Shown piece after piece: positions 4,088 to 25,221 of a DNA stretch of 32,911 nucleotides. The notes below the pieces were generated by a model that did not search any database, had not been told where the DNA came from, and saw only the letters and a list, made by a program, of their open reading frames with translations. Position numbers and translations under genes: made by a program. The stretch is from a virus, in the IMG/VR virus record IMGVR_UViG_3300032278_002433, positions 1 through 32,911 of that record; one strand, 5' to 3'. The stretch's first letter is position 1, and the number at the start of each line of letters is the position of its first letter.

Positions 4088-5307
4088 TGTATTTAAATTA
4101 CTTTGATAAATTTTACAATATGGAGCCCTATCTCAAAATAGACGAGAAAGATTGGGAATACATAAAAGAAACATTTGAAAAACAAGATGTAAAAGAAAGT
4201 CTTGCCACGGTAGCAATGACCTATCCACTCCCATATCCAGATTTAACCGAAAAGAAGGCCTGGAAAGATTTCCAAAAACTCAAAGGGATGAAATGGAATG
4301 AAATAATGGTAGAGGGTGAGTGGTATGCAAGAGAGGGAACGAAGTATAGTTATAATCTGAACTATGATGGAAAACAACTCTACTTTCGTAGGTTGAACGC
4401 AGGAAACGATTGTAGTAACTATTTTCAAATAAAAAATAGGTGGTCGGTAGATGGTTCAGTATCACCAGGTCCAGTTAGGACTTGGGAAAGTCATAAGTTT
4501 ATGACTACTCTTATGGGAAGTGCATACTCACTTAAAATGCCCAAGATTACCAAGAATATATTGAGGACTATGATTGGACTTCGTAAATATATTTGTTCTC
4601 AATTTAAACCTAATGTGGCAAAGATAATTTATGATATGTTTGAATCAGAGAACATACTTGATTTCAGTGCTGGTTGGGGTGATAGACTTGCAGGATTCTA
4701 TGCAAGTGAATATGGAAAACATTATGTAGGAATAGATCCACGAAAAGAAAATCATCCTTTATATGAAGAACAATCTAAGTTTTATGACAAACATTTAGGA
4801 TTTTTTGAACATGATAGAAAGGCAGAGTTTTATTGTTCACCCTCAGAGGATTTTGATTTTTCACAGTACAATGAACACTTTGATTTAGTATTTACATCAC
4901 CACCTTACTTTAGCGTAGAGCGTTATAGTTATGATGATACTCAAAGTTGGGTTAGATACAAAGATATAAACGACTGGAACAAAGATTTCTTACAGACGAC
5001 CTTGGGTAACTTATGGGGCAGTATTAAGAGAGGTGGATACTTATTAGTGAATATATCAGATGTTTATACAAATTCTAAATGGTCAACCGATAGAGGTTGG
5101 TTGGAAATCTGTAATCCTATGAATGATTATCTATCAAAGTTAGGAGAGTATCAAGGTTGTATTGGAATGGAAATGGCTAAACGACCAAATAGTGGTGGGG
5201 CAGGAACGGCAAAGACTTACGAAGGTTCTGTGTGGACAGAAAAATCACTTGAAAACAAACAAGATAAGAAATTCGGAGAACCGATTTGGATATGGAAAAA
5301 GACATGA
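4087..5307 (+). CDS. DNA-methylase-like protein with SPPYF motif
   Basis: This 406-residue protein has SAM-binding motif I, DFSAGWGDR, at 192-200 and catalytic motif IV, TSPPYF, at 270-275. SPPY is typical of N4-cytosine and some N6-adenine DNA methylases. The first 180 residues form a separate region ending in FKPNVAKIIYDMF, which could recognise the substrate. A second protein with the same organisation (FRP..AAKLIYEKF, DMSCGWGGR, TSPPYF, then a TQS motif) begins at 31919, so the two are paralogues. The start is GTG at 4087, sharing one base with the preceding TAG. Methylation of phage DNA is the obvious role, but because it follows a PLP enzyme and a YkgJ-like protein it may belong to a more complex base-modification pathway. 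Confidence 0.75.
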   Translation: MYLNYFDKFYNMEPYLKIDEKDWEYIKETFEKQDVKESLATVAMTYPLPYPDLTEKKAWKDFQKLKGMKWNEIMVEGEWYAREGTKYSYNLNYDGKQLYFRRLNAGNDCSNYFQIKNRWSVDGSVSPGPVRTWESHKFMTTLMGSAYSLKMPKITKNILRTMIGLRKYICSQFKPNVAKIIYDMFESENILDFSAGWGDRLAGFYASEYGKHYVGIDPRKENHPLYEEQSKFYDKHLGFFEHDRKAEFYCSPSEDFDFSQYNEHFDLVFTSPPYFSVERYSYDDTQSWVRYKDINDWNKDFLQTTLGNLWGSIKRGGYLLVNISDVYTNSKWSTDRGWLEICNPMNDYLSKLGEYQGCIGMEMAKRPNSGGAGTAKTYEGSVWTEKSLENKQDKKFGEPIWIWKKT

Positions 5308-5855
5308 AAATTGAAAAATTTCAATATCCAGATTATGTTAATTTTAATAAGAAAATATTTCCAGTATTTTTAGAGTGGTCTAAAACAAAAGAAGATTTTC
5401 GTGAGAATAATGAATATCATAGGGATAGATATGATCAGAGAGTCAAAGAGAGAATCACATATTTTGATATGAATAAATCTTGGCATTCAGAAGATAATTT
5501 ACAAGATAATGAGTTATTAAAACCATTAAAAGATTTTATTCTTGAAACTGCAAAAAAAACATTTAATAAAAAATTTAAATTCTATACTATGTGGACAATA
5601 ATTACAAGAAAATATTCTAAAGGAGAACCACATTCACATCGTGGTTCTTATAGTGGTATATATTATGTAAATAATGGATGTTTTGATGATGATAACATTA
5701 CAGGATGTATAAATTTTGAAATGAAAGACGGAGTAAAAAAAGTTAAGCCACGAGATGGTGATTTATTATTTTTCCCATCAGATACGGTACATTATGTTGA
5801 TGAGTATCTTGGAGATGGCAATCGTGTTGTAATTTCTTTTAATTTGATGAAATGA
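5304..5855 (+). CDS. 2OG-Fe(II) oxygenase-like protein (paralogue 1)
   Basis: This 183-residue protein resembles the double-stranded beta-helix oxygenases of the TIGR02466 type. It has PHSHRGSYSGIYYV with H110 and H112, a distal H163 in DTVHYVDEY and R174 in GNRVVISFN, which fit metal and 2-oxoglutarate binding. The ATG at 5304 is preferred over TTG 5286 or ATG 5292. It gives the ATGA overlap used throughout this genome, and it lines up with the paralogue at 18261 (KFQYPDY here, KFEYPDY there). The substrate is unknown; such enzymes hydroxylate proteins, nucleobases or small molecules. It is followed through an ATGA overlap by a PP-loop ATPase. Confidence 0.7.
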   Translation: MKIEKFQYPDYVNFNKKIFPVFLEWSKTKEDFRENNEYHRDRYDQRVKERITYFDMNKSWHSEDNLQDNELLKPLKDFILETAKKTFNKKFKFYTMWTIITRKYSKGEPHSHRGSYSGIYYVNNGCFDDDNITGCINFEMKDGVKKVKPRDGDLLFFPSDTVHYVDEYLGDGNRVVISFNLMK

Positions 5856-6619
5856 AAGAAAAAACAGAACATAATATTTTTTGGTGTGCCGGAGTTGATT
5901 CTACTTATTGGGTTTGTAAAAAGTTAATTATAGATAAAGAACCAATTGAAACATATTATTTAGATTTTCCATGTGATGGAATAGACACCACAGGTTGGTC
6001 AGGTCCACGAAAGGATTTGGTAATAGGTGGTGGTAGATTTACACGAGATATAGAAAAAAAAGTGATGTCTAATTTGAGAAATCAAATAATAGATAGTTTT
6101 CCTTATACAAAGGAATTGTTTCCAGAAGTTGTAATGGTAGAAGAATTTGAGTTGGAAGATAGTGTTATACAATCTATAGAATATCTTTCTGAAACGTATA
6201 ATCATAGTCGTAGAATTATTGATCAAAATACTTTTATGGCACAGTATACATTAAATAGAAAAGAATTTTTTGATATTTGTTATGAGAAAGATATGAATGT
6301 TGGTGGTTATTCACCAGCAACTCGGTTGTTGAGAGAACAAATGAATGATGATTTTACAATATCTCATTCTGAAATCAAAGAGTTAAATATTTATAAATAT
6401 TGGAAATTTCCTATTTCAAAAACTTATAGACGAGATATGATTAGAGAATCTAAAAAACATGGTTTTATAAATATACTTGAAAATACTTGGTCTTGTAGAT
6501 GGCCATCTGAAAATGGTGATCTTTGTAATGAATGGCCCTGTGTAAATTCATGTATAGAATTTCAAGATGACATTGATGTTGATTTCAAACGAAAAAGAAA
6601 TTATAATGATTTGCTATGA
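5852..6619 (+). CDS. QueC-like PP-loop ATPase (copy 1)
   Basis: This 255-residue protein has an N-terminal PP-loop, CAGVDST (12-18), matching the SGGxDST ATP-pyrophosphatase signature with Cys-Ala in place of the first Ser-Gly. Near the C-terminus four cysteines (C215, C225, C230, C234) follow the pattern TWSC..C..C..C, as in QueC, where they bind zinc. QueC makes preQ0 by adenylating a carboxylate and adding ammonia; PP-loop enzymes generally activate a carbonyl for N or S transfer. The long middle part (about 60-200) is not recognisable. Two other proteins in the window share both ends of this design. It overlaps both neighbours through ATGA. I infer amide- or nitrile-forming chemistry on an unknown substrate. 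Confidence 0.7.
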   Translation: MKEKTEHNIFWCAGVDSTYWVCKKLIIDKEPIETYYLDFPCDGIDTTGWSGPRKDLVIGGGRFTRDIEKKVMSNLRNQIIDSFPYTKELFPEVVMVEEFELEDSVIQSIEYLSETYNHSRRIIDQNTFMAQYTLNRKEFFDICYEKDMNVGGYSPATRLLREQMNDDFTISHSEIKELNIYKYWKFPISKTYRRDMIRESKKHGFINILENTWSCRWPSENGDLCNEWPCVNSCIEFQDDIDVDFKRKRNYNDLL

Positions 6620-9279: not shown

Positions 9280-10014
9280 ATGAAAAAGGTTTTTGTAACA
9301 TTAGCAAACAAAGAATTTTTACCTTATGTTAAACCATTAGAAGTTTGTGCAAAAGAGGTTGGAAAATGGGATGGAGATTTTGTTTGTATCACAGAAGATT
9401 CAGAATTTGTTAAAAAGATTCCAGGGAATCCATCTATTCATTTTTATAAAATGTTTTTGTTTCATGAGTACTTTAACCAATGGGATTGGATATTTTATTG
9501 TGATTTAGATGTTATGTTTTTAAATAAAATAAATTTGGAATTAAAGAATAGGCAAAAGGATATTTTATATGCAAATGATGATGATCTTAAATTTCATGAG
9601 CAATTTAGCAAATTGCCAGTAGAATTAAATCCCGTTTCAGATTATAAATCATTTCAGACTTGTTTTTTGTTATTTAATAAACAAATTATTGGGGATGATT
9701 ATTTTAGCAAGTTGTATGAGTGTTATTTAGATTATTTTGTTTATAGAAAAATTGCAAAATATAGTTGGTGGGATCAAACAATTTTCAATTCAGTTTTCAT
9801 TGATTCTTGGCATGAGCTTGGTGATAAATTTGTTAATAGATGTCCAGTTTTAAATGAAATTGATTGGGACATATCAAAGTTAGAAAATGGTTATTATGAT
9901 AATACGGACTATTCAGATAAGATAGCTGTACATTTTTTTAGTTTTTTTCCACCATGGAACGAAAACAATTTAAAATTTTACCCAATATGGAAGGAGTATA
10001 ATGACAGATTCTAA
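9280..10014 (+). CDS. Glycosyltransferase, GT8-like
   Basis: This 244-residue protein has the GT-A metal-binding DxD motif in WIFYCDLDVMFL (D75, D77), the typical position in GT8 and related nucleotide-sugar transferases. Other agreeing features are an N-terminal strand KKVFVTLA, SWWDQTIFNSVF near 175-190 (the conserved DQ block) and a C-terminal AVHFFSF with a histidine near the end. It starts directly after the previous stop and overlaps the first MORN-repeat gene by 14 bases. Substrates are unknown. Confidence 0.7.
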   Translation: MKKVFVTLANKEFLPYVKPLEVCAKEVGKWDGDFVCITEDSEFVKKIPGNPSIHFYKMFLFHEYFNQWDWIFYCDLDVMFLNKINLELKNRQKDILYANDDDLKFHEQFSKLPVELNPVSDYKSFQTCFLLFNKQIIGDDYFSKLYECYLDYFVYRKIAKYSWWDQTIFNSVFIDSWHELGDKFVNRCPVLNEIDWDISKLENGYYDNTDYSDKIAVHFFSFFPPWNENNLKFYPIWKEYNDRF

Positions 10015-11509
10015 ACAAAAACATGGAGAATACATTAAATATGATGATTCTGGAAGAATTACAAACATTGATTGGTATACAGATGGAAATCATGATTGTA
10101 GTTTAGATATTACAGATGGAGAACATATTTATACTCACGGTGATGGAAAACTTTGGCAAAAATATACTTTAAAGGGTGGTAAACCAGATGGTGAGTGGGT
10201 TTTATATCATTCAAATACTCGAATGAGTTTTTATAGAAAATTTAAGAATGGTTCAAGAGAGGGAATTTGGACAGGATGGCATAATGATGCTACAAGATGG
10301 ATGGTTGAAACTTATAAAGACGATAAAGAAAATGGATCTTTTAAGAGGTGGAGATATGGTGAAGTACCTCAATTTGAAGGTTATTATAAAGATGGTAAAA
10401 AAACTGATAAATGGATTTATTATTATGAAAGTGGAATACATGAATATGGTGGAAAATATAAGAATGGTAAAAGAATAGGAAAATGGGAAAGGTGGCATGA
10501 TGTATCAGGTCAAATATTTGCTATATCATATTATAAATATGGAAAATTAAATGGGAAATATACTGAGATTAACGAGGCTGGAAATGTATCAGTTGATGGT
10601 AATTATAAAAATGGTGAAAAGGATGGTAAATGGGTTTCTTTAAATAAAAATAAAAAAGTGGAAATGGAATTTAATTACAAAGATGGAAAGTTACATGGAA
10701 AGAAAATTTATTTTAATAAGTTAGGAAACCAAGCGAAAGTAGAATTTTACAAAAATGGGGAAATAGACAAGACAATTAATTATCATACTAATTTAGACCA
10801 AAAATTTAGGGAATTTAATTATGTAGATGGTAAGTTGAATGGGAAACATACAGAATTTGATAAAAAAGGAAATATAATTCTTAATGGTTATTACAAAGAT
10901 GGTGAAAAGGACGGTAAATGGGTTTTACTATCTCTTGGTGGTGATCCACGGAAAGAGGAAAATTATTTAGAAGGTAGATTAAGTGGTATCGTTAAAAAAT
11001 GGCATCCTAATAAAAAACTTTGGGTAGATGGTGAATATAGAAATGGTAAAAAACATGGAACTATCAAGAGTTTCCATTTTAATGGTGAAAAATCAACTCG
11101 TGAAAATTGGAATCAAGATAAAAAAGATGGTGATTGGACTGATTGGCATAAAAATGGAAATAAAAAAATGGAAACCATATATTCTAAAGGTGAAATACAA
11201 GGTAAACGGGTAGATTGGTATGTGAGTGGTAAATTAAAAAATGAATACTTTTGTAAAGACGATAAAATTCATGGAAATTTTTTAGAAAATTTTCCTAATG
11301 GCATCATTAGAAGTAAGGGTAAAGTTAAAAAGGGAAAAATGGATGGAAAATGGACATTTTGGTATCACAATGGACAAAAAGAGTGTGAGGTTATTTGTAA
11401 AAATGGAGAACTTATTGATGGTAAAGTTTGGGACGATGATGGCAATAAAAAAGAAAGTTTAAGATTTAATTTAACTTGGGAAGGTTCTGATGAACTACAG
11501 GATATTTGA
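10001..11509 (+). CDS. MORN-repeat protein 1 (MORN_2 / YwqK-like)
   Basis: Nearly the whole 502-residue protein is built of roughly 22-25-residue units of the MORN variant type. Each has a core like YKNGKKDGKW, then an aromatic strand such as WYHNG, and then a strand with alternating charge. I count close to twenty units, from GEYIKYDDSG at the start to ECEVICKNGE near the end. There is no signal peptide or membrane segment. The ATG at 10001 has an AAGGAG site at 9991-9996. MORN_2 repeats occur in bacterial proteins of mostly unknown role, some called YwqK-family antitoxins. They form elongated beta structures that can act as scaffolds or receptor-binding parts. It is paired with a second MORN gene through TGATG. 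Confidence 0.8.
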   Translation: MTDSKQKHGEYIKYDDSGRITNIDWYTDGNHDCSLDITDGEHIYTHGDGKLWQKYTLKGGKPDGEWVLYHSNTRMSFYRKFKNGSREGIWTGWHNDATRWMVETYKDDKENGSFKRWRYGEVPQFEGYYKDGKKTDKWIYYYESGIHEYGGKYKNGKRIGKWERWHDVSGQIFAISYYKYGKLNGKYTEINEAGNVSVDGNYKNGEKDGKWVSLNKNKKVEMEFNYKDGKLHGKKIYFNKLGNQAKVEFYKNGEIDKTINYHTNLDQKFREFNYVDGKLNGKHTEFDKKGNIILNGYYKDGEKDGKWVLLSLGGDPRKEENYLEGRLSGIVKKWHPNKKLWVDGEYRNGKKHGTIKSFHFNGEKSTRENWNQDKKDGDWTDWHKNGNKKMETIYSKGEIQGKRVDWYVSGKLKNEYFCKDDKIHGNFLENFPNGIIRSKGKVKKGKMDGKWTFWYHNGQKECEVICKNGELIDGKVWDDDGNKKESLRFNLTWEGSDELQDI

Positions 11510-12756
11510 TGGTAAAATATAAAAAAGTACCAAATAATAAAAATGCAATAGAGATTGATGGAAAGGTAGTACTGTCATTTGATCCAAGGTATAAAAAATA
11601 TTTGAAATGGAAAGATAAAAATCCTGAGTTAGAGGAAAGATTAATAGATAATTTAGAACAAGAAATAGAAAATGAAAAGTTGTATAATCTTGGTGCTCCA
11701 CATACGGGATCTAATAGTTGGAGTTGGTATAATGAAGATGGGAAATTAGGTTTGGAATCTGAAATGAGTGGGGGTAAGAAAGATGGAGAAGAGAAGGCAT
11801 ATCACGATAGTGGAAATTTAAAGTCTATATTTGAGTATCAAAATGATGTGATTCATGGTAAATCAAAAAATTGGTATGATAATGGTGAATTAGAAATGGA
11901 AGGGAATTTTAAGAACGGTAAAAAAGATGGTAAATGTATTTTTTATTTTGAGAATGGTAATAAAAAATGGGAAGGTAATTACAAAGATGATATTGTTTAT
12001 GGTCAATTGATTCAATATAAAGAAGATGGAAAGATAAGGTCAAAAGAAAATTATATAGATGGGGTTTTAGATGGAAATTACGAATTTTATCATAAAAATG
12101 GAAATTTAAGACAAAGTGGTTGGATACAAAATTATATGAAAAATGGAGAAATTAAATCATATTGGGAAAATGGATATTTACAATTATTAGAAAATTTTAA
12201 GATGGGAAGTAAACACGGAATAATCAATAAATATGGAATAGATGGAAAAATGCTTATGTCGGGTCAATATAAAAATAATTATCGTCATGGAAATTGGACA
12301 TGGTATTATATAGATAACACGTGTCTTCCTCTCTCTCGGATAGAGAGAGTGAGAGAAGGTCTCAGAGCAAAGAGGAAACGAGAGGTATATGAATTTTCAG
12401 ATTTAAAAAAGGTTATTGATTGGAATGAAAAAGGACAAAAAGTTAGTGAGGCAACCAAGAGTGCTACTGGATACGGTATATGGAGAAATCTTACTTGGTA
12501 TTCAAGTGGAGTTAAAAAACATGATGTAAATTACACAATAATGCACCATTTACACGGAAAATGGTCAGAATGGCATACGAATGGTGTAAAAAGAGCAGAA
12601 GGTAATATGCAATATGGAATGATGCAAGGAAAGTGGATATTTTGGCATCATAATAGAAAAAAAGAATTAGAATGTGAGTTTGATTTTGGAAGGCCCGTTG
12701 GTAGTGCAAAAATATATCATGATGGTGGTCAATTAAAGGAAGTGGTAAATTTTTGA
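11509..12756 (+). CDS. MORN-repeat protein 2 (MORN_2 / YwqK-like)
   Basis: This protein has 415 residues from ATG 11509, chosen over TTG 11506 because it forms the TGATG junction. The first 65 residues are a non-repeat, coiled and acidic region (ELEERLIDNLEQEIENEK). MORN_2 units follow with cores such as FKNGKKDGKC and HNRKKELECE. The array is broken near residues 268-300 by a basic, G+C-richer stretch (SRIERVREGLRAKRKR) that coincides with a DNA hairpin at 12331-12349. Repeats resume after it. The two MORN genes are probably duplicates that diverged. The stop overlaps the radical SAM gene's TTG. Function is unknown; a structural or binding role is the simplest inference. Confidence 0.8.
   Translation: MVKYKKVPNNKNAIEIDGKVVLSFDPRYKKYLKWKDKNPELEERLIDNLEQEIENEKLYNLGAPHTGSNSWSWYNEDGKLGLESEMSGGKKDGEEKAYHDSGNLKSIFEYQNDVIHGKSKNWYDNGELEMEGNFKNGKKDGKCIFYFENGNKKWEGNYKDDIVYGQLIQYKEDGKIRSKENYIDGVLDGNYEFYHKNGNLRQSGWIQNYMKNGEIKSYWENGYLQLLENFKMGSKHGIINKYGIDGKMLMSGQYKNNYRHGNWTWYYIDNTCLPLSRIERVREGLRAKRKREVYEFSDLKKVIDWNEKGQKVSEATKSATGYGIWRNLTWYSSGVKKHDVNYTIMHHLHGKWSEWHTNGVKRAEGNMQYGMMQGKWIFWHHNRKKELECEFDFGRPVGSAKIYHDGGQLKEVVNF
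12331..12349. repeat. CT/GA hairpin inside MORN gene 2
   Basis: CTCTCTC (12331-12337) and GAGAGAG (12343-12349) are exact complements around a five-base loop GGATA. The surroundings (about 12319-12385) are richer in G+C and in CT/GA repeats than any nearby sequence. The stretch lies in frame within a MORN array, and its translation does not follow the repeat consensus. It looks like an in-frame insertion or local simple-sequence expansion. Confidence 0.55.
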
Positions 12757-16444: not shown

Positions 16445-17354
16445 TTTTATTATACCTTTTTCTACGATAGAAAAAGATAAGTTTTTAAACTTAAACGAGA
16501 AAGAAGATTTGTGGAAAGAAAATGATTCTGCAAATATAATCTATTCTACTATAAAAACAATTAAAAATATTAATTCACTTGAATGTGAAAAAGAAATTTT
16601 ATTAATGGATAATAGTCATACTTGGCCAGAGATAAAATTACCAAATGTTAGAGTTATTAAGGGATGGCAAGCATTACCACTTAAAGAACTTGAAAAGATT
16701 CCAGAATACATGAACCACAGAGATATACAGGCAAGTTTAGATAACCTTGGTTGTTTGACTATGTGGGTATCTATGGCATTTCATTTGGGAACACAAGAAG
16801 CAAAGGGCGAGTATGTGGTATTACAACATAATGACACATTCTATCATCAAGATTGTATAGATGAAATGATTAAAGAAATGGAAGAAGAAGAACTTGAATA
16901 TATTTCAGTTGATAATAAGAAGATATGGATTTCAACTTATTTGTTAAATAAAGATTTTTTAGATAAATATATTAAAGAATATACTGCACAACCAGTTATA
17001 ATAAGACCTGAAAATGGTGGATATATAAAAACTAAAAAGGTTGGATTTGCAGATGCGTATTTTTTCATGTGTAAGAGAAAGTTCTTTGATAATTATAATA
17101 TAGACTGGTACTATGGTGATACGAATCATGGTGCTACTGTTTATTGTCTCTATAATGATTTAAAGTATCTTCATTTGGGTCCCTATTATGATAATCCAAA
17201 TTGGGAAACGGAAGATACGTTACATACATATTACTATAAAGATGAGCCATTTTTAACTCATCTTAAAGGTGGATTTTCAGAAAATAAGATGTCATCAAAA
17301 GATTTTGAAGAAGAATTTAATAGTTATTTACAGGAATTAAAAAATGCAAAATGA
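16437..17354 (+). CDS. Glycosyltransferase, GT2-like (GT-A fold)
   Basis: This 305-residue protein begins with the typical MISFIIPFST strand of GT2 enzymes. EILLMDNSHTW follows at strand two. A region GEYVVLQHNDTFYHQDCI has HND at the place of the DxD metal motif. Further on are FFMCKRKFFDNY and a C-terminal HLKGG segment. There are no membrane segments, so it acts in the cytoplasm. The ribosome site AAGGAG precedes ATG 16437. It overlaps the gp44 gene by 11 bases, so cargo and replication genes are translationally linked here. Substrates are unknown. Confidence 0.65.
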   Translation: MISFIIPFSTIEKDKFLNLNEKEDLWKENDSANIIYSTIKTIKNINSLECEKEILLMDNSHTWPEIKLPNVRVIKGWQALPLKELEKIPEYMNHRDIQASLDNLGCLTMWVSMAFHLGTQEAKGEYVVLQHNDTFYHQDCIDEMIKEMEEEELEYISVDNKKIWISTYLLNKDFLDKYIKEYTAQPVIIRPENGGYIKTKKVGFADAYFFMCKRKFFDNYNIDWYYGDTNHGATVYCLYNDLKYLHLGPYYDNPNWETEDTLHTYYYKDEPFLTHLKGGFSENKMSSKDFEEEFNSYLQELKNAK

Positions 17355-18264
17355 ACATACCCTATGGGTAGAAAAATATAGACCAACTTCGTTAGATACA
17401 TATTTAGGTAACGAACACTTAAAGAGTAAGGTATCTCTTTATCTTGAAAGTGGAGATATACCACATTTACTTTTATATGGAAAGGCAGGTACAGGTAAAA
17501 CTACACTTGCAAAGATACTCGTAAATCACATAGAGTGTGATTATATCTATATTAATGCGAGTGATGAAAATAATGTGGATACAGTTCGGAACAAGGTGAA
17601 GATGTTTGCATCTACATTAGGTTTCAAAGATTACAAGGTCATTATACTTGATGAGTGTGATTATATCACACCAAATGCCCAGGCCGCACTAAGAAATTTG
17701 ATGGAAACATTTAGTAAACATTGTAGGTTTGTTTTAACCTGTAATTTCGTAGAGAGAATAATTGACCCGATACAATCTCGATGCCAGACATTCCAAACTA
17801 CACCACCATCCAAAAAGGAAGTGGCAGTTCATTTATCAAAAATATTGGAAACCGAAGAAGTAGGATATGAACTATCTGATATAGCACTTTTAATAAACAG
17901 TGTATATCCAGATATAAGACGAGTTATCAATTCCGCACAACGACAATCAGTAGAAGGTGAATTGACAATAGATAAACAGAGTATCGTAGAGAATGATTAT
18001 AAGTTAAAGTTATTAGAAATATTAAAGACACAAGATAGGAAAAATGCATTTAAGAGCATCCGTCAGTTATTGGCAGATAGTCAAGTTAAGGATTACGCAG
18101 ACTTATTTAGACTACTATATGATGAAGTAGATAGTTATGGTAAGGGACATATTGCAGAATGTATTTTAGTATTAGGAAAGTATGAATTAAGTGATAGTCA
18201 GGTAGTTGATAAAGAAATCAATGCTATGGCTATGATAATAGAATTATTAGGAGTCATAAAATAA
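17344..18264 (+). CDS. 44: Clamp-loader ATPase large subunit (T4 gp44-like)
   Basis: This 306-residue AAA+ protein matches gp44 of T4 (319 residues). It has the RFC-type start LWVEKYRPTSLDTYLG, Walker A GKAGTGKT at 46-53, Walker B ILDECD ending at 106, and the SRC arginine-finger motif at 145-147 (PIQSRCQTF). Four such subunits plus gp62 open the gp45 ring and load it onto primer-template DNA. It is relatively G+C-rich (17641-17700 has 23 G/C of 60) compared with the flanking cargo, which suggests a different history. gp62 does not follow directly as in T4; a candidate lies almost 12 kb downstream. The stop TAA overlaps the presumed lost start of the next gene. Confidence 0.95.
   Translation: MQNEHTLWVEKYRPTSLDTYLGNEHLKSKVSLYLESGDIPHLLLYGKAGTGKTTLAKILVNHIECDYIYINASDENNVDTVRNKVKMFASTLGFKDYKVIILDECDYITPNAQAALRNLMETFSKHCRFVLTCNFVERIIDPIQSRCQTFQTTPPSKKEVAVHLSKILETEEVGYELSDIALLINSVYPDIRRVINSAQRQSVEGELTIDKQSIVENDYKLKLLEILKTQDRKNAFKSIRQLLADSQVKDYADLFRLLYDEVDSYGKGHIAECILVLGKYELSDSQVVDKEINAMAMIIELLGVIK
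18249..18264 (+). promoter_or_regulatory. Ribosome site and apparent lost start (ATA) at the gp44 / oxygenase junction
   Basis: AGGAG at 18249-18253 is followed seven bases later by ATAA (18261-18264). Other junctions in this genome have ATGA at this place, with ATG the start of the next gene and TGA the stop of the previous one. A G to A change at 18263 would convert ATGA to ATAA, keeping a stop for gp44 but removing the start of the downstream frame. The downstream frame (ATA AAA ATA AAT CCT) encodes the expected N-terminus of a 2OG oxygenase paralogue. Confidence 0.65.
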
Positions 18265-18821
18265 AAATAAATCCTGCATATTTTATTAAAACGAAAGAAG
18301 GTAATTCGAAAGATATTGGAAAATTTGAATATCCAGATTATATTGATTTTAATAATAAAATAGGCTCATTACTTATAGAATGGTCTAAAACTAAAGAAGA
18401 TTTTCGTGTAGGTGGAAGTGAACGACATACATATTTTGATATCCAGCACACTTGGCATTCAGTAGATAATCTTTTTGAGTATGAACAATTTTTTTCATTA
18501 CGTGATTTTATACTTGAAAAAGTGTCATCTTCTACAAGATTTGAATCAATGTGGGCGATAATAGCTAAAAAACATTCTAAAGGAATAAGACATTCTCATA
18601 AAGGAACTCATAGTTATTGTTATTATGTAAGTAATGGCCATAATGATGAAAAAATTACAGGTAAAATGTTATTAGAAACACAAGATGGAAATGTAGTAAT
18701 TGAACCACAAGATGGTTTTTTATATGTTTTTCCAGCTACTACAGACCATACTATATATGAGTATTTAGGTGAAAATACTCGCATTGTTATCGCCGGTAAT
18801 TTGGTGATAGAGGAGTTATAA
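18261..18821 (+). CDS. 2OG-Fe(II) oxygenase-like protein (paralogue 2), non-standard start
   Basis: This frame encodes 186 residues that align along their length with the protein at 5304. Shared pieces include KFEYPDY, EWSKTKEDFR, YFD....WHS.DNL, FILE, RHSHKG for the metal HxH, a distal DHTIYEY and NTRIVIAGN. The frame is open from 18213, yet has no ATG, GTG or TTG before the ATG at 18522, which is codon 88. A good AGGAG site points to ATA at 18261 as the ancestral start position. It may be translated weakly from ATA, from the internal ATG as a shortened protein, or not at all; a sequencing error is also possible. No internal stop or frameshift is present, so any decay is recent. Confidence 0.65.
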   Translation: MKINPAYFIKTKEGNSKDIGKFEYPDYIDFNNKIGSLLIEWSKTKEDFRVGGSERHTYFDIQHTWHSVDNLFEYEQFFSLRDFILEKVSSSTRFESMWAIIAKKHSKGIRHSHKGTHSYCYYVSNGHNDEKITGKMLLETQDGNVVIEPQDGFLYVFPATTDHTIYEYLGENTRIVIAGNLVIEEL

Positions 18822-18825
18822 AATA

Positions 18826-20076
18826 GTGTATGACTATCTAAGAGAAATTCCACCTGTTTATAAAAACGAGTACAAAAATTTAGTTATTAACTCTGGAATG
18901 ATACCTTGTAAATCTGATATAAAATATCAATTGGTATTAATCTCATACAACGAAGAAAAGGTGATAGGTGGATGTATAGAATCAATTATTAATCAGACAG
19001 CCTCTCCAAATGAGTTTGAAGTGTTAATTATTAACAATTGTTCTACTGGAGAAGAATTTGATAATACTGAATTAGTAGTTAAAGAAAAATTAGAGAAGTA
19101 TAAATATGATAATATACATTTAATAAATGTAAAATTTCCTAAAGAAATTACAAGTGCATCCTTAGCTGCAAAGTATGGTATGGATATTGCTCTGTATCGA
19201 TGGAGGGAGTATTCAGAATTTAATAATGGAATAGTTGCATTTTTTGGAACAGATAATGTATTTGAAAATCATTTTGTTATGGAAGTATTAAATACTTTTA
19301 GATCACCATCTAAATATGAGAATCCACATCAATTATATCCAATAGGATTAGGTGAGGATAGGATAGATATATTAGTAACAAATTGTGGGGGCAATCATAA
19401 GTTTTCCAGTTTTAAAGATATAGTTGATATTTCAATATTAAATCCTTATATAAAAAAGATAGAAACTATGAATCAGTTATTGGGAAAATGGTATTATGAA
19501 AATTTTGATATAGTTTGGGGAGTAAAAAAAGAAAAAAAAGTAAATTTAGATGAAAGGTTAATATACCGATATTCAGATAAAAGTCCAATATGGCCCAAAA
19601 CATTTAGAGCATCAATTTATGATGAATTGGGTGGTGTTAAAATTCAAGCACAAGAGGAACAGGCGATAATAATTAAAGCGGTAATTAATGATTGTGTTGT
19701 AAAATTTAATGATTTAACAAATTTTACTCATATACATAGATTAGAAAAACCAAGAGTTCCTGATGGTAGTTTCACACAATTATTAGTAGATAGTTTTGGG
19801 GCATATACAAATAAAGAAGAATTACAGGTTTATAAACTTGATTATTGGACAATGAGAAATAATATTGAAAAATATTTTTATGAAAAAACTTTCTATGAAA
19901 ATTGGAATCCTACATTTTTTTCAGAGAAAGATTTACAAAAAATTAAGAAAGATTCAGGAGAATCATATTTATATTTTAAGAACAAATTTATTTATCAATT
20001 TCAAGATGATATAAATAAGATTTATAAAAAAATAAGTATTAATAAAGTTATTAATGACATAAAAAAGGAGTTGTAA
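18826..20076 (+). CDS. Glycosyltransferase, GT2-like, with long C-terminal extension
   Basis: This 416-residue protein has the GT2 start YQLVLISYNEEKVIGGCIESI, in which the SYNEE nucleotide-binding strand and helix are clear. EVLIINNCSTGEEF and FFGTDN at the DxD position follow. The remaining 250 residues are less typical and rich in Lys and Tyr. The start is GTG at 18826 with AGGAG at 18811-18815. It shares a base with the ClpP gene (TAATG). No membrane segment is visible. The activity is probably sugar transfer, with unknown donor and acceptor. Confidence 0.7.
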   Translation: MYDYLREIPPVYKNEYKNLVINSGMIPCKSDIKYQLVLISYNEEKVIGGCIESIINQTASPNEFEVLIINNCSTGEEFDNTELVVKEKLEKYKYDNIHLINVKFPKEITSASLAAKYGMDIALYRWREYSEFNNGIVAFFGTDNVFENHFVMEVLNTFRSPSKYENPHQLYPIGLGEDRIDILVTNCGGNHKFSSFKDIVDISILNPYIKKIETMNQLLGKWYYENFDIVWGVKKEKKVNLDERLIYRYSDKSPIWPKTFRASIYDELGGVKIQAQEEQAIIIKAVINDCVVKFNDLTNFTHIHRLEKPRVPDGSFTQLLVDSFGAYTNKEELQVYKLDYWTMRNNIEKYFYEKTFYENWNPTFFSEKDLQKIKKDSGESYLYFKNKFIYQFQDDINKIYKKISINKVINDIKKEL

Positions 20077-24030: not shown

Positions 24031-25221
24031 ATGATTAAAAAACCATTATCTTGTAAATTAATATCATCTGATATTGATATTGATTTAGACGGTTTATTAT
24101 TAACAAAAATTGGTAGTTATAAAAAGGTTATTAAAGAATTAATTTATGATATACATAAAGAACTTTCTGATCCTTGGGATGATATATGGTCCTTTGATGA
24201 TGTAATTGAGAGATTTGATAAGGGTGAAATTTTATGGTTAGTTTTGAAGGATGAGAAACCAATAAGTTGTAGTTGGATATCAGTTAAGTCTAAAAAGAAT
24301 TTGTATGTCTATAATACTTGGTTAAAACCAAAATTACGAGGAACACCTTTATTTAAAAAAATATCATTGGTTAGAAATAATAAGTTGTATAATTTAGGTT
24401 ATGAAAAACTTCTATGTGTTACCGATAATGTTCGTGCAGAATGGGGATTAAAAAAGATTGGATATAAAGAAGATAATTGGTTAAATATCCATTATACATT
24501 TTGGACAGGTGGATATGATTCAACTTTTTATGTGTGTAAACTTTTGACAGAGGGGGAAATAGTACAACCGATTTATATAGACGATAGAGTAAATCACGGT
24601 GGCTATCATGCAAATCCACTTGTAAAACAAAGAGGTGGTGATACTTATCCAAGAAAATCTACGGAAATAGAATTGGAAAGAATGGATTGGTTAAGGCAAA
24701 GAATTTATGAAAAAATTGAAAAGTCTAAATATTTATTGTTGGAAACAATGGTTATTGATAAACCGATAGAAGAAGATGAAGAAATAAGTAAGGTTGTAGA
24801 AAAATACAATGAATGGATTCCCGAATCATTATACAGAGATAAAAATGGTGATACACATTGGTTAGAGGCCCAAGCAGATATGGTATTGAGATTTGGAAAA
24901 CAATTTGGTTATAGAATAAATTACCCTATAAATTATATTGAAGATGATTGGTATGAAATTCTTGATTCTGCAATCAAAGATGGGAAGTTTTATTCTGAAA
25001 AATTACCAGAAGAAAATAAAGATTTGAGTATATTTGGTGTATTTGATTATCCATCAAGACATTTAAAAAAAGAAGAAATGCTAAAGATAGCAGAAAAAAG
25101 AGGATTTGATGAGTTATTGTATTATACTTGGACTTGTTGGTATCCTAAAAATGGTAAACCTTGTAATGAATGTAAGGTTTGTTCAGAACGAATAATAGAA
25201 AGTAAGGAAATAAAAATATGA
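24031..25221 (+). CDS. GNAT acetyltransferase-like domain fused to QueC-like PP-loop ATPase (copy 3)
   Basis: This is a 396-residue fusion. Residues 1-150 look like a GNAT domain: a beta strand ILWLVLKDEKPISCSWI, then LKPKLRGTPLFKKIS in the acetyl-CoA loop position, and LGYEKLLCVTDN..AEWGLKKIGYKE at the end. From 155 on it is a PP-loop protein: TGGYDST at 159-165 and a QueC-like C-terminal Cys set C369, C378, C381, C384 (TWTC ... CNECKVC). The PP-loop half has the same plan as the protein at 5852. The fusion implies acetylation (or a related acyl transfer) and ATP-driven amidation acting on the same or consecutive substrates. It overlaps the outer-membrane-like gene by ATGA. Confidence 0.7.
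   Translation: MIKKPLSCKLISSDIDIDLDGLLLTKIGSYKKVIKELIYDIHKELSDPWDDIWSFDDVIERFDKGEILWLVLKDEKPISCSWISVKSKKNLYVYNTWLKPKLRGTPLFKKISLVRNNKLYNLGYEKLLCVTDNVRAEWGLKKIGYKEDNWLNIHYTFWTGGYDSTFYVCKLLTEGEIVQPIYIDDRVNHGGYHANPLVKQRGGDTYPRKSTEIELERMDWLRQRIYEKIEKSKYLLLETMVIDKPIEEDEEISKVVEKYNEWIPESLYRDKNGDTHWLEAQADMVLRFGKQFGYRINYPINYIEDDWYEILDSAIKDGKFYSEKLPEENKDLSIFGVFDYPSRHLKKEEMLKIAEKRGFDELLYYTWTCWYPKNGKPCNECKVCSERIIESKEIKI

Follow-up and report, generated by a model that had tools for sequence, protein, structure and literature searches.

In S. aureus the genes infC, ccpN and citZ start with AUA, and AUA reporters reach ∼10–30% of the AUG level (PMC13009471). Those starts were measured by ribosome profiling, that of ccpN is conserved, and the Shine-Dalgarno (SD) motifs before them are described as extended. 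Stop/start overlaps with termination-reinitiation have also been described (PMC6728339). Oxygenases of the PHROG 81/PF13759 type are found in cyanophages and pelagiphages. The window analyzed here is a 32,911-base virus record made up of one metagenomic virus contig, and contains such an oxygenase frame directly behind gp44. Like the S. aureus genes it has AUA behind an SD, and it differs from them in the three further respects just named. It is placed and spaced like the ATGA junction of a termination-reinitiation overlap but lacks the start codon itself. With the cyanophage and pelagiphage oxygenases it shares a Pfam match above the cut-off and a PHROG match; compared with them it has no canonical start, a 16-codon N-terminal extension and an altered C-terminal tail. 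Its predicted fold is most like those of bacterial P4H and PHD2.

The window is a marine T4-like phage; among named phages the nearest tblastn matches to its gp44 are T4-like clamp loaders, at <50% identity. The features concerned are listed here, with L numbers denoting related loci.

5304–5855, + strand: intact oxygenase paralogue, its ATG in an ATGA overlap
5852–6619, + strand: oxygenase partner gene, homologue of L003 609–1451 (38% identity, E 3e-66)
17344–18264, + strand: gp44-like sliding-clamp loader ATPase (ORF; Pfam AAA and DNA_pol3_delta2; tblastn to annotated phage gp44)
18249–18253, + strand: SD AGGAG within the gp44 end, the sole SD at a workable distance for the oxygenase frame
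18261–18263, + strand: ATA where the ATG of an ATGA overlap would fall (from the sequence and gp44 relatives)
18261–18821, + strand: start-less 2OG-Fe(II) oxygenase frame (PF13759, PHROG 81)
18264–18317, + strand: N-terminal extension, codons 2–19 (KINPAYFIKTKEGNSKDI), coding-like
18522–18821, + strand: longest canonical-start ORF of the oxygenase frame (GTG, 99 aa), without SD
18811–18828, + strand: AGGAGTTATAAAATAGTG, oxygenase/glycosyltransferase junction, nearly reproducing the L113 gp44/glycosyltransferase junction
18826–20076, + strand: family 2 glycosyltransferase with GTG start; 95% identical protein in L110
20076–20684, + strand: ClpP-like protease, found directly after gp44 in L004, L005, L007 and L039

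Elsewhere in the window, at 10001–12756, two long ORFs lying side by side are built of repeated NG-, W- and E-rich motifs that appear MORN-like or YwqK-like, judged by reading the translation alone.

The oxygenase frame is open from 18213 (upstream stop TAA at 18210) to its stop at 18819–18821; it lies at −1 relative to gp44 and reads open through the gp44 stop (TAA, 18262–18264). A sequence-only reading of this locus had described ATA seven bases after AGGAG, the lack of ATG, GTG or TTG before codon 88, and a paralogue of the 5304 oxygenase downstream of gp44, and these observations held up. AGGAG at 18249–18253 is followed after 7 nt by ATA at 18261–18263, the earliest canonical start, GTG 18522, is codon 88 when ATA is taken as codon 1, no ATG, GTG or TTG lies within reach of the ribosome site, and the frame, which matches PF13759, is ∼50% identical to the paralogue. 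Production from GTG 18522, being the first canonical start, or as a gp44 fusion through a −1 frameshift at AAA TAA, with the frame at −1 and open across the gp44 stop, seems very improbable. The GTG has no SD, is not conserved in L003, and as a start would drop two predicted helices (27–44 and 75–88). As for frameshifting, AAAATRA is shared by relatives in which the following gene carries a start of its own, the join has no classic slippery heptamer, and its RNA structure is ordinary (z −0.69); on the last two grounds we rejected a programmed frameshift.

The start-less frame encodes a predicted PF13759 2OG-Fe(II) oxygenase. It matched the Pfam profile at E 4.8e-9 (37 bits against a gathering cut-off of 27) and also matched PHROG 81; the chance of 186 open codons in a random frame of the same composition is p ∼1e-8. 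H111, H113, H163 and R174 are invariant across the three oxygenase copies, the histidines being putative iron-site residues, and an AlphaFold model (pLDDT 72) matched P4H and PHD2 with a best E of 1.8e-7. The predicted double-stranded beta-helix fold and the conserved histidines are those of a 2OG-Fe(II) oxygenase.

No stops or frameshifts were found in the frame. Amino acid changes numbered 6 on the window branch against 11 on the L003 branch, with no excess in the window, and codons 18–87 gave a dN/dS of 0.67 based on only 20 changes. An intact frame and a branch with no excess change imply either that loss and decay are recent or that some expression remains. The sequence-only reading, which had seen no other damage to the frame, had overlooked the 16-codon extension, absent from both L003 and the paralogue. 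We screened 88 related sequences (538 kb, both strands) by codon usage for coding-like leading parts without a start, yielding the oxygenase frame and one frame in L047. The L047 frame, a truncated gp43 within 100 nt of the contig end, was rejected as a contig-edge artefact, and since it sits at a contig end the oxygenase is the sole start-less gene inside a contig in the 538 kb. The left end of L047 (1–130) looks chimeric, with gp43 cut and fused to unrelated DNA.

The sole close relative of the start-less oxygenase in the collections searched is that of L003, at 70% identity. L003 and L110 belong to one record, IMGVR_UViG_3300026261_000132, with the gene order gp44, oxygenase, partner, glycosyltransferase, ClpP; the window has gp44, oxygenase, the 95% identical glycosyltransferase and ClpP in the same order, and unlike that record it lacks the partner at this position, has the extension, and has no ATG in an ATGA overlap with gp44 (L003 positions 94–97). 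We scanned viral contigs (queries: the protein, the paralogue, L003 and the alignment) and bacterial genomes (query: the alignment) and ran tblastn on phage records; in these collections, which may leave out very near records, L003 was the sole close relative. An oxygenase profile run against 50 related phage records found L003 and three distant matches. The paralogue likewise begins in an ATGA overlap (5304–5307), with an upstream methylase-like gene. Because both other copies have the overlap, a start codon is missing from the window copy, as the sequence-only reading had proposed. AAA is the second codon after ATG in L003 and the paralogue, and AAA also follows ATA in the window.

The partner gene adjoins the oxygenase in L003 and at 5852 and is absent beside the start-less copy. 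Oxygenase and partner (5304–6619; L003 94–1451) overlap and are conserved as a pair, apparently moving together. The L003 partner has a weak QueC-like PHROG match, and another partner relative, 25% identical to the L003 copy, lies at 24031–25221 behind an N-terminal domain of ∼150 residues. Alignment of window 18320–18821 with L003 105–612 showed 90% DNA identity over codons 18–87 and much greater divergence in the remainder; dS was 0.14 in codons 18–87 and 0.81 in the 3′ half, so the oxygenase gene is itself a mosaic.

The N-termini of L003 and the paralogue read MK[LI]EKF; the window copy has IK, 16 extra codons, then IGKF. Neither L003 nor the paralogue has anything corresponding to these 48 nt after codon 2. 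The 54 nt past ATA are coding-like in the oxygenase frame (shuffle p 0.003), with ∼1 in 1000 out-of-frame windows equaling the score and one reverse-strand frame tying it. For a source of the extension we compared its DNA and peptide with the window and every locus, and scanned viral contigs twice with back-translations of KINPAYF and YFIKTKE; all matches were short and chance-like. No relative with the same gp44/oxygenase junction and the extension, and none with the same ATA and conserved protein before codon 88, was found in the collections searched.

The nearest gp44 genes, by nucleotide identity, are in L004 (93.9%), L039 (93.8%), L005 (92.1%) and L007 (83.5%). In all four the gp44 stop is TAA and ClpP rather than an oxygenase follows, its ATG overlapping the stop as TAATG. 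Over the final 87 nt of gp44, stop included, L004 and the window do not differ. Homology of the window to these four stops exactly at 18264 and restarts at 20074 with the same TAA, placing oxygenase and glycosyltransferase between the gp44 stop and ClpP. A18263, the last base of ATA, doubles as a base of the gp44 TAA and is common to the four relatives; it therefore need not be a mutation, and from these alignments is most simply gp44's inherited stop.

These comparisons bear on two explanations that we rank behind loss of the start at a cassette join. The sequence-only reading had preferred a point mutation, in which the immediate ancestor had an ATGA overlap with gp44 and one G-to-A change, turning the gp44 stop from TGA to TAA, removed the oxygenase start. 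The ATGA and AAA second codons of L003 and the paralogue, matching the AAA after ATA, fit this, as do coding-like first codons past ATA, as if translation had once begun there. Against it, TAA was already present in gp44's four closest relatives, so that the stop would have had to pass from TAA to TGA and back, or the gp44 end to have been replaced, and replacement is disfavored by the exact identity to L004. Among related genomes, to which that reading had looked for a G at 18263, the four closest gp44 relatives have A, and L003 has ATGA at its oxygenase junction. We regard the point mutation as unlikely, though it stands first among the alternatives. In a single metagenomic virus contig it is conceivable that sequencing or assembly went wrong at 18263 or close to it, or that gp44 and the oxygenase were joined as a chimera, the more so with the chimeric-looking end of the related record L047; the base nonetheless agrees with the closest gp44 relatives, the join is inside a long contig with the frame open on both sides, and there is no long repeat at the join that could mislead an assembler. 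This we doubt more strongly than the point mutation.

At least 11 unrelated gene families occur directly after gp44 among 86 relatives (L004–L083 and L111–L116). Their genes mostly start at offset −1 (ATGA) or +2 (TAATG, TAGTG) relative to the stop, and many rely on gp44's own AGGAG. AGGAG and its spacing are not particular to the oxygenase, being gp44's own 3′ end in most relatives, irrespective of the next gene. In L003 the oxygenase lies between two copies of AAAATGAAA, of which L116 has one; L003 and L116 differ by an apparent exchange at this start-containing microhomology. The resemblance of the oxygenase/glycosyltransferase junction to the L113 gp44/glycosyltransferase junction marks it, by sequence, as another putative exchange scar. 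A 15-nt repeat, AGGAGTYATAAAATA, brackets the window oxygenase and is the best of 741 start-region pairs at 14/15, weak on its own because several unrelated pairs reach 13/15.

The explanation that we favor, at about even chances, is that the start was lost at a recombination join that placed an ATGA-type gene behind a TAA-type gp44. The position directly after gp44 would be an exchange point for gene cassettes, where the final gp44 codons (AGGAGTYATAAAA) would supply the SD and the stop would overlap the next start as ATGA or as TAATG/TAGTG. With gp44 of the TAA type in the window lineage, as it appears from the four closest relatives, an ATGA-type oxygenase joined directly behind TAA would keep the ribosome site and not the start codon. 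Such a join predicts exactly the observed arrangement, in which gp44 retains its stop and the oxygenase has an intact frame but no start. The oxygenase frame would then stand under gp44's SD with AUA in place of AUG, and little or no protein would be expected from it. Function is probably supplied by the intact oxygenase-partner pair at 5304–6619, in which case the orphaned copy could decay. The donor and its start are here modeled on L003 and the paralogue, as no relative with the same junction and extension turned up. The start-less oxygenase looks like an orphaned spare copy, and is probably silent or weakly expressed.

If AGGAG, 7 nt away, and termination-reinitiation following gp44 gave low-level translation from AUA 18261, this would instead be a real AUA-initiated gene. 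The SD-to-AUA distance is proper for one, no other near-cognate codon lies at a usable distance from the sole SD, the frame with its extension is coding-like from ∼18255 on, the window branch shows no excess change, and AUA starts have been measured in S. aureus (PMC13009471). Yet the SD is only 5 nt, no relative has a conserved ATA (the start is ATG in L003 and the paralogue), the 538 kb of related sequence yielded no further start-less gene inside a contig, and the same genome holds a second, intact oxygenase copy. Real use of AUA thus comes just after the point mutation in our ranking, and is unlikely. With AUA yielding ∼10–30% of AUG in S. aureus, low oxygenase expression is possible; the fuller proposal, that termination-reinitiation behind gp44 truly yields a phage oxygenase translated from AUA, perhaps in a low-dose form arising from a one-base difference in junction type, is more doubtful than AUA use as such, and only slightly less so than an error in the record.

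Whether the start was lost at a join or AUA is used, an automatic gene caller would place a spurious 99-aa gene in the oxygenase frame. If AUA is used, the locus is a natural test of near-cognate reinitiation in a phage. The join explanation, if correct, reveals a simple price of swapping cassettes where stop and start overlap: gp44 never loses its stop, but a single base at the edge of the exchange determines whether the arriving gene comes with a start.
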